Of a DNA stretch of 34,175 nucleotides, positions 132-34,175 are shown piece by piece (the first letter of the stretch is position 1; every line of letters starts with the position of its first letter). Position numbers and translations under genes: made by a program. The DNA is from a virus, in IMG/VR virus record IMGVR_UViG_3300032241_000056, positions 1 to 34,175 of that record. One strand, given 5' to 3'. A model generated the notes under the pieces. That model did not search any database and was not told the origin of the DNA. It saw only the letters and a program-made list of their open reading frames with translations.

Positions 132-422
132 TTACTCCTCGTCTAATTCGTTTTGCAAGCCAAAAGCGTTGGATTTTTCCAACAGCTCAGGCCAAATTAA
201 CCAGAAGTTGTTAGGAAACAAGTCTTTACGACTTACAAGACCATGCGATTCTTTTTCTATTCTTGCGCCTAAAAACATATATTTTGCGGCTGGAATTCCA
301 CGAACACGCCAATTAGACACTGCTGCTGAGTCGCATTTACACATTTTTGCAACCCTTGCAGTACCACCTAAAAGGTCAATTATTGCGGAATCGGTGAGTT
401 TAAGTTGTCTGTCCATGCACAA
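132..422 (-). CDS. Cro/YdaS-like HTH transcriptional regulator
   Basis: A small DNA-binding protein of about 95 residues. Residues about 12-50 form a helix-turn-helix (LLGGTARVAKMCKC...AVSNWRVRGIP) and the C-terminal part has the DLFP...WLIWPEL pattern common in phage Cro-like repressors. It is transcribed divergently from the early operon at 540, and two inverted repeats lie between them, so it probably controls the early promoter and itself. The start is uncertain: TTG at 422 has AGAGG at ideal spacing, whereas ATG at 416 is 12 bases from it. No separate CI-type repressor or integrase is visible, so a lysogeny role is unproven. Confidence 0.82.
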   Translation of the reverse strand: MCMDRQLKLTDSAIIDLLGGTARVAKMCKCDSAAVSNWRVRGIPAAKYMFLGARIEKESHGLVSRKDLFPNNFWLIWPELLEKSNAFGLQNELDEE

Positions 423-32956: not shown

Positions 32957-33294
32957 TTTTGTTTAAGGCTATCGTATGTGTCGTAACCTGTTCCAAGAAC
33001 GCCCAGTTCTCTAGCTTTATTTTCAATACCTTCGTTAGAAAACATCCACTTTTTGTCAATTTTTTCTTTCTTTGGTTCGATTACTAATTCATCTTCCCAA
33101 CGCTCTTGGTTTAACCAGGTTGCCGGATGGGGGATAAATTCTAACTCAGTTTCTTTTGTTTTCCAATAAAGGCAATGCTCATCTATTGCCTTGCAAGCAT
33201 CAAGCTGTTGCTGCTCTGTAAGACGCATAAATGCTTTACGAGCTACTGCTTTTGCAACTTTGCGTGGATAAGCTGTCCAAAATTCATCAAACAT
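32923..33294 (-). CDS. Phage replication-type protein (O C-terminal-like)
   Basis: I chose ATG at 33294 (MFDEFWTAYPRKVAKAVARKAFMRL), because the upstream small gene ends just inside it; 33312 is an alternative. The FWxxYPxKVxKxxAxKAxxxL...FIPHPATWLNQERWEDE module is the usual C-terminal part of phage replication initiators of the O/DnaD-like type and also stands alone, as here (123 residues). The winged-helix initiator half is missing. It may recruit host helicase or primase; no helicase gene is visible in this genome. Confidence 0.76.
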   Translation of the reverse strand: MFDEFWTAYPRKVAKAVARKAFMRLTEQQQLDACKAIDEHCLYWKTKETELEFIPHPATWLNQERWEDELVIEPKKEKIDKKWMFSNEGIENKARELGVLGTGYDTYDSLKQKCLKALGMNVA

Positions 33295-33406
33295 TTCTAT
33301 GATACCTATCATTAGGATTGTTTAACATTGAATTTAAAAGTTCGTCAATATTTGAAAACCATTGAATAACTTTTAAGCCATCAATTGTGTAAATTGTAAA
33401 ACTCAT
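33287..33406 (-). CDS. Small coupled protein, 39 aa
   Basis: A 39-residue reading frame, MSFTIYTIDGLKVIQWF to NNPNDRYHRNV. Its start overlaps the upstream stop as ATGA (33403-33406) and its end overlaps the replication-type gene by 8 bases, so it fills the only gap between them. No function recognised. The double overlap is the main evidence that it is real. Confidence 0.55.
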   Translation of the reverse strand: MSFTIYTIDGLKVIQWFSNIDELLNSMLNNPNDRYHRNV

Positions 33407-33831
33407 TGCATTTGACGAATTGTAGGCGCTGTGCGTGGGCTTGATGGAATTGTGTACAAAGGTGTACCAATTACGCTTGTTGTATTTCCTTGTGGTGTTT
33501 GTATTACGACCTGATTAGGATAAATTGTAGCGGTCTGAGTTGTAACGCCTTGAGCGTTTACAAATTGCGCTGTATTGTCCTGAATTTGCACCGAACCAAC
33601 ATTATATCCTTGTGAGTTTGTCATTGGATAAGTTTGTGCGTGTGCTGAACCATAACCAAACATACATCCAAGCAATGCGCCTAACAAACAAGCTCCTAAA
33701 AAGTCCTTAAAATTATTTTTTTTAGATTCTTTAAACAAAGTTACTGTAGGTTTTTTCCAATAGCCTTTTTCAATAGATTCTTTGTTTGTAAAGATTGTTT
33801 TGTTTCCATTTTTGTCGTGCGCTATAAACAT
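33403..33831 (-). CDS. Membrane-anchored or exported protein, 142 aa
   Basis: 142 residues. A charged, cytoplasmic-type N-terminus (residues 1-42, including KKPTVTLFKESKKNNFKD) is followed by FLGACLLGALLGCMFGYGSAHAQ, a hydrophobic segment with an AHA-Q signal-peptidase-like end. A Gln/Thr/Val-rich mature part (VQIQDNTAQFVNAQGVTTQTATIYPNQVVIQTPQG) ends IRQMQ. The unusually long pre-signal region makes a type II anchor likely. It is the first gene of the leftward early operon, so an envelope role early in infection, such as superinfection exclusion, is conceivable. AAAAGGGGAATC is its ribosome site. Confidence 0.72.
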   Translation of the reverse strand: MFIAHDKNGNKTIFTNKESIEKGYWKKPTVTLFKESKKNNFKDFLGACLLGALLGCMFGYGSAHAQTYPMTNSQGYNVGSVQIQDNTAQFVNAQGVTTQTATIYPNQVVIQTPQGNTTSVIGTPLYTIPSSPRTAPTIRQMQ

Positions 33832-33888
33832 TTGATTCCCCTTTTGTTTACTCGTTATTGAGTGATACCAGTTTCTTATTATTTTTTA
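33829..33888 (-). repeat. Shared leader segment, copy 2
   Basis: The minus-strand leader before the gene starting at 33831 carries the same two blocks as 2930-2975: TAAAAAATAATAAGAAACT (33888-33870) and AAGGGGAATCAAATG (33843-33829). Confidence 0.7.
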
Positions 33889-33944
33889 TTGTTGTCACTA
33901 AGTATTTACGAGTAGTTGCTTAAATACAACTATGACTTATTAAA
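33849..33944. promoter_or_regulatory. AT-rich control region with inverted repeats
   Basis: Gene-free, about 28% GC. It contains TACTCGT (33849-33855) matched by inverted ACGAGTA (33908-33914), and TAGTTG-N8-CAACTA (minus strand, ending near 33915). It must hold the promoter for the leftward early operon, but I could not pick a convincing -35/-10 pair. The inverted repeats are operator candidates. Confidence 0.4.
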
Positions 33945-34002
33945 GAGTCCTTAAGTAGTTTAAAGACTTATTTATGATGCATTTAGTACCTATCCCAAAA
34001 GG

Positions 34003-34175
34003 TTTGAGCGCACCTAGCCCTACCTAAGTGCGCCTTCAGAGTATCCCATTAAGGAATCGCTCACCCGACAGTCTTGCGAGGCACAGGCACTATCTTCGCC
34101 ACCTGTATTGCGCTATTTCAGCCTCTTACCCTTCTGGTAACGCTACAACCTTAGACCGCCACGATGTCGTTAGAG
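34003..34175 (-). ncRNA. Candidate structured RNA, 3' part (junction element)
   Basis: Continues the element described at 1-122 across the circular junction. On the minus strand GCGCACUUAG-GUAGGG-CUAGGUGCGC (34033-34008) is a 10-bp stem that extends by one more G-U pair, and AUUCC-UUAAU-GGGAU (34057-34043) is a second stem. Both use G-U pairs that fail on the plus strand. Positions 34069-34175 duplicate 1-107. No long open frame with a start and ribosome site explains the high GC. Confidence 0.42.
34069..34175. repeat. Direct terminal repeat, right copy
   Basis: Exact copy of 1-107 (see there). Removing one copy gives a circular map of about 34,068 bp. Confidence 0.95.

Follow-up and report, generated by a model that had tools for sequence, protein, structure and literature searches.

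The viral DNA analysed here (34,175 bases; hereafter the window) carries on its minus strand a phage member of the Rfam family RF02932, "Betaproteobacteria-1 RNA". The RNA has a pseudoknotted core of five helices and, beyond it, a hairpin (P6) accompanied by a co-evolving direct repeat, X1/X2. We put the probability at about one half that the element is a small RNA gene with its own promoter whose product acts in trans on a host function, the core serving as scaffold and the repeat as two equal sites for a single partner.

The RNA element is split in two by the ends of the record. Positions 1–107 recur exactly at 34069–34175, and joining 34003–34068 to 1–125 gives 191 nt with 52.9% GC, beside an AT-rich kilobase (33001–34000, 34.7% GC). 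This bears out the initial annotation, which had joined 34003–34068 to 1–121 and described a segment of about 53% GC next to an AT-rich flank. An identical 107-mer is found at both ends of a second circular contig (34,962 bp, loci L022/L028), broken at the same point, while the end repeats of other relatives (99, 123 and 127 bp) lie at other places; the L039 contig has the same 107 bases unbroken. Because of the shared 107-mer and the different placing of the relatives' repeats, the end repeat is most likely an assembly overlap cut within the RNA gene, and its interpretation as a packaging terminus was rejected. The assembler would have broken both genomes at a common, highly conserved stretch. 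As proposed at the outset, the element sits between a Cro-like gene and leftward early genes: a Cro/YdaS-like gene (132–422) lies upstream and a replication-initiation-family gene downstream. An inverted repeat (ACTCGTTATTGAGT, 33850–33863), possibly an operator, precedes the gene at 33403–33831; several relatives, L003, L016 and L080 among them, have the same repeat downstream of the RNA. The rightward early region contains a tRNA-Asn gene (anticodon GTT, 2716–2791).

Both overlapping halves of the element score above the RF02932 gathering cut-off of 49.4 bits, and both matches fall on the minus strand. Positions 1–121 score 67.8 bits (E 1e-10) and positions 34063–34175 score 62.6 bits. The near-identical unbroken copy in L039 reaches 79.2 bits over the full model (1–120), and our own model, R1, gives 94 bits for the half spanning 1–124 and 83.3 bits for 34063–34175. 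The choice of the minus strand as the RNA was thus correct; the statement that no known RNA family could be recognised was not, as the proposed Rfam search returned RF02932. The conserved UGAAAU, GGUGGCGAAG and CUG-CG elements are common to the window and the family, as is the taxonomic setting, the Burkholderiales. The consensus helices of RF02932 (P1, P2 and cuAG/CUgg) are present in the window alignments and supported by covariation. The two differ in extent. The Rfam model ends at CGGGU (120 positions), and the phage RNA goes on for about 80 nt that contain P5, P6 and the direct repeat X1/X2. Neither P3 nor PK2 is drawn in the printed Rfam structure. The likely source paper for the family is reportedly Weinberg 2017; no publications on RF02932 were found in the literature searched. 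Rfam types the family as sRNA, with no function assigned.

The core was analysed in an alignment (A1) of 43 sequences, in which five core helices were counted. Hairpin P1 (CCUUAGA/UCUAAGG, 115–121 with 81–87) is followed by strands in the order P2, PK2, P2′, P3, PK1, P3′, PK2′, PK1′. In P2, GCGUUA (70–75) pairs with UAGCGC (42–47), and from its loop PK2 joins GAGGC (53–57) to GCCUC (10–14). P3 pairs ACAGG (34–38) with CCUGU (15–19); from its loop, PK1 joins AUAGU (21–25) to ACUGU (34068–34072). Covariation supports this five-helix core, and the outer pair of PK1 is seen as A-U, C-G, U-A and G-C. Paired combinations fill 83.2% of core cells, compared with 60.3% after shuffling, and cells with changes on both sides number 279 against 90. 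The covariation score of 0.553 (0.183 when shuffled) was matched by none of 500 shuffles and compares with no more than 0.20 in slid controls; kinship among the sequences inflates the shuffle controls, an effect lessened but not abolished by the slid controls and by a re-pairing test described below. Covariation in relatives, which the initial annotation had put forward as a check, is therefore strong in the core and, together with the family match, supports a structured non-coding RNA. Among the stem-loops listed earlier, P1, P6 and, in the ACAGGUG/UGCCUGU region, P3 are real and covary in relatives. UUACC/GGUAA is not conserved, the supported helix at that place being P2, and the two pseudoknots had been overlooked.

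Folding energy does not single out the element. The minus-strand fold amounts to -62.8 kcal/mol, while 500 dinucleotide shuffles averaged -61.0 kcal/mol with a standard deviation of 4.3 (z -0.4). The plus strand does not stand out either (z -0.17). The excess minus-strand stability by which the element was to be judged initially is thus not seen and, the fold being no better than shuffles, energy by itself gives no support for an RNA. The nested-fold energy gives no credit to pseudoknots, and covariation is the stronger test. In agreement with the first reading, the element is covered by no ORF of 50 aa or more; a protein-coding frame is not supported as an explanation.

Beyond the Rfam model, the conserved order is P5 (34034–34062) with X1 (CCUUAAUGGGAUA, 34042–34054) inside it, the sequence GAAGGC, hairpin P6 (GCGCACUUAG-GUAGGG-CUAGGUGCGC, 34008–34033) and X2 (CCUUUUGGGAUA, 33991–34002), the 3′ limit of the conserved RNA. 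As this second repeat copy occupies 33991–34002, the RNA extends at least to 33991, past the edge originally drawn at 34003. All four pairs of P5 show changes on both sides, with 73% of cells paired in an alignment that is a little out of register for the subtype found in the window; in P6, 91.7% of cells are paired and 5 of 10 pairs have changes on both sides. For P5 and P6 together, pairing reaches 86.8% (75.0% when shuffled) and the score 0.357 (0.210), a value found in none of 500 shuffles.

The two repeat copies resemble each other more within a sequence than across sequences. When each X1 was scored against its own X2 in 30 non-redundant sequences, the mean was 7.42, the best of 10,000 random re-pairings giving 6.62. 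The copies change together between lineages: both read UGGGAUA in the window, CCAGGCGGAUAAA in L073 and CCAAAAAGCAA in L068, and the pair in L075 is CCGAAAGGCAGA/CCAAAAGGCAGA. Likeness within lineages combined with difference between them suggests one partner common to both copies. When ten phage genomes were searched for complements or further copies of X1/X2, no site stood out. The Burkholderia "alpha" subtype (the names alpha, beta and gamma are coined here) appears to lack the repeat, so that the idea of two sites cannot cover the whole family. Three loci, L163, L174 and L168, share about 590 bp; L163 and L174 diverge exactly at the expected start of X1, the divergence from L168 setting in about 128–130 bases past the start of the RNA core, as if the element ended or recombined there.

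A candidate promoter for the RNA was identified by eye and by scoring at 129–158 on the minus strand. It comprises TTGCAA (158–153), an 18-nt spacer and TAAACT (134–129), matches 8 of 12 consensus bases and overlaps the stop codon of the Cro/YdaS-like gene. In most phage relatives a TAnnnT box occurs 5–6 nt before P1, though other upstream bases vary, and in most cases a TTGnnn-like box lies 16–18 nt above it. Since a stricter promoter scan did not list the window site, the case for the promoter rests on this conserved position. Burkholderia copies have their own TATAC-type promoter. A terminator-like hairpin (TGTTGGAAAAATCCAACG followed by CTTTTGGCTT; 167–184, minus strand; one found in the scan, 0.4 expected) lies upstream of this promoter, within the 3′ end of the Cro-like gene, and may keep transcription of cro apart from that of the RNA. 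Free-standing transcription of the RNA has indirect support from the fixed promoter box and from the position of most Burkholderia copies, which is not that of a leader (see below).

Relatives were collected from viral contigs by exact conserved motifs, a sampling that favours close relatives; two such scans returned 51 and then 72 stretches, and the RNA is present in about 70 viral contigs. The same kind of scan of genome contigs returned 12 stretches, five of them true relatives (Paraburkholderia, Caballeronia) and the others apparently chance matches. RF02932 scored above its cut-off in 31 of 250 Burkholderiaceae genomes, with up to four copies each, whereas a sample of 368 further genomes from the class gave no match. 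With R1, matches were obtained in 5 of 300 genomes sampled from the order, one of these being the reference genome. In the genomes sampled, the family is confined to Betaproteobacteria and their mobile elements. BLAST searches of annotated phages and plasmids gave nothing with the window RNA as query and a single match with that of L066: Acidovorax phage AP1, the one isolated phage with the RNA, where it scores 93.4 bits and is unannotated.

The genomic surroundings differ between phages and bacterial chromosomes. In AP1 the RNA comes directly after genes for a ParB-like partition protein, a helicase and a primase, and L066 has a similar setting, as judged by Pfam for helicase and Toprim. Burkholderia copies are mostly alone or adjoin transposon genes, at scattered sites; those in L121, L126 and L129 lie among ordinary genes, so that carriage by mobile elements may not extend to every copy. 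Neighbours vary, and no single kind of gene regularly follows the RNA in the same direction. The "gamma" subtype accompanies a tnsB-tnsC-tniQ operon at seven of seven Burkholderiaceae loci (L181, L182, L183, L184, L185, L199 and L200), always convergent with tniQ and 0.3–1.65 kb away from its 3′ end. At L183, only 289 bp separate the RNA start from tniQ, which places this RNA within the transposon. An eighth copy assigned to "gamma" (L123) and some "alpha" copies (L130, L194, L198) are near a second transposon type, TniA-TniB-TniQ, and 7 of 11 close full-length tniQ genes are accompanied by the RNA. In some "gamma" regions the cargo is of defence type, for example ZorD and Orf5/GmrSD; PDC-S06, ZorD and Orf5 are found near several copies. 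Large ATPase genes that match the PADLOC candidate system PDC-S06 lie a few kb from RF02932 copies in L123 (8750–11362) and L131 (1214–3850). At ten "alpha" loci (L098, L100, L103, L105, L106, L107, L109, L112, L113 and L115) the core belongs to a larger conserved non-coding element of about 500 nt, set in differing gene neighbourhoods, in which a TATAC promoter is followed by a 5′ domain opening with GTCAC and closing with GTGAC and then by the core; several copies have a GGTTATTCC/GGAATAACC hairpin, and the conserved end is near CCGCTGCGCGG..GGCAGCCAGG.

These settings bear on what the RNA might do. It could be a cis-acting leader of the leftward early operon, its nascent fold controlling either transcript elongation into the genes below 33831 or their translation, as a put-like antiterminator, an attenuator or a riboswitch would; X1 and X2 would compete for a 5′ partner such as AUUCC. 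Structured RNAs at the start of early operons are found among phage leader antiterminators such as the HK022 put RNA. The phage copies of RF02932 do precede co-directional genes, with no obvious terminator between, and X1 can pair with AUUCC just upstream, X2 having the same bases. The RNA differs from put, however, in size and fold, and pairing of X with the 5′ side is limited to 3–5 bp in most lineages, whereas the identity of the repeats reaches 11–13 nt. Moreover, many Burkholderia copies are convergent with the next gene (by crude ORF calls), hence not leaders, and the downstream gene varies from copy to copy. We regard a leader as unlikely. A role in replication, as an origin transcript priming or regulating phage DNA synthesis, is less likely still. 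The initial annotation had suggested a regulatory or replication-linked RNA, and the phage copies do adjoin replication genes (AP1, L066 and the replication-initiation-family gene of the window), but early genes of any function cluster there too, and the copies in Burkholderia chromosomes and transposons have no replicon genes nearby. It is because most Burkholderia copies stand alone or near transposon genes that a trans-acting RNA gene is favoured over a local replication element.

The link to tniQ raises the question of a guide or scaffold RNA for an RNA-guided enzyme, of the TnpB omega RNA or Cas-less CRISPR-associated transposon type, with X as the guide. CRISPR-associated transposons keep their guide RNAs beside tniQ, where the "gamma" copies are also found, and two Burkholderia copies part from their relatives exactly where X1 would start. 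Yet RF02932 comes with no adjacent Cas or nuclease partner seen and no repeat array, and its phage copies are without transposon genes; TnpB/Cas12f-type effectors (PF07282) are absent from all 11 RNA-bearing phage records searched. X is common to close relatives rather than individual, and no match to it stood out in the ten phage genomes. Five of the seven "gamma" transposon regions border gyrB (named from its sequence), as in tniQ/tnsD targeting, so that targeting looks protein-directed; RNA-guided target choice by these transposons was set aside on this ground. A guide function is thus quite improbable. More improbable still is a template for a DRT-like reverse transcriptase, with X1 and X2 as template-jumping repeats around P6. 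A direct repeat flanking a hairpin is also a feature of DRT2 non-coding RNAs, but there is no reverse transcriptase family in the window proteome, and none of the 25 Pfam families listed for the neighbours of Burkholderia copies is one. For TnpB guide and template alike, it is the missing partner genes that count against them. A type III antitoxin or AbiF RNA was also considered and dropped as an unlike system; the RNA motif of PMC12373285 is RF03085, which is tied to abiF genes.

In the trans-acting reading that we prefer, transcription would start near 124 on the minus strand and run through 1 and 34068 to about 33990, producing an RNA of some 205 nt early in infection. The compact core would act as a scaffold, its probable ligand being a protein of the host or one that is widely shared. 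X1 and X2 would provide two equal putative binding sites, both for a single partner specific to the lineage, which may be an RNA or a dimeric protein. Acting in trans in the manner of a sponge or decoy, the RNA might adjust or block a host function to the benefit of the mobile element, and the same benefit would account for its presence in transposons and islands. Prophage sRNA sponges and decoys, such as AgvB of E. coli, are likewise RNAs of mobile elements, and repeated equal sites would suit titration; the phage RNA differs in its far larger, pseudoknotted fold.

A more specific proposal, which we advance tentatively and think rather doubtful, is that RF02932 is a bivalent, partner-tracking RNA of Burkholderiales phages and Tn7-like transposons, whose conserved pseudoknotted scaffold displays two copies of a short recognition sequence, both rewritten with each change of partner, and which seizes a host factor or counters host defence. 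If true, it would represent a new kind of mobile-element RNA tool. The family now offers testable handles on its function. These are the pseudoknotted core, the 3′ domain outside the Rfam model with its co-evolving repeat, the native promoter, AP1 as an isolated carrier phage, and the strict link between one subtype and tniQ transposons. Should the RNA prove to be directed at the host or against its defences, it would be one of the few RNA-based counter-defence tools, and its presence in unrelated mobile elements would be explained.
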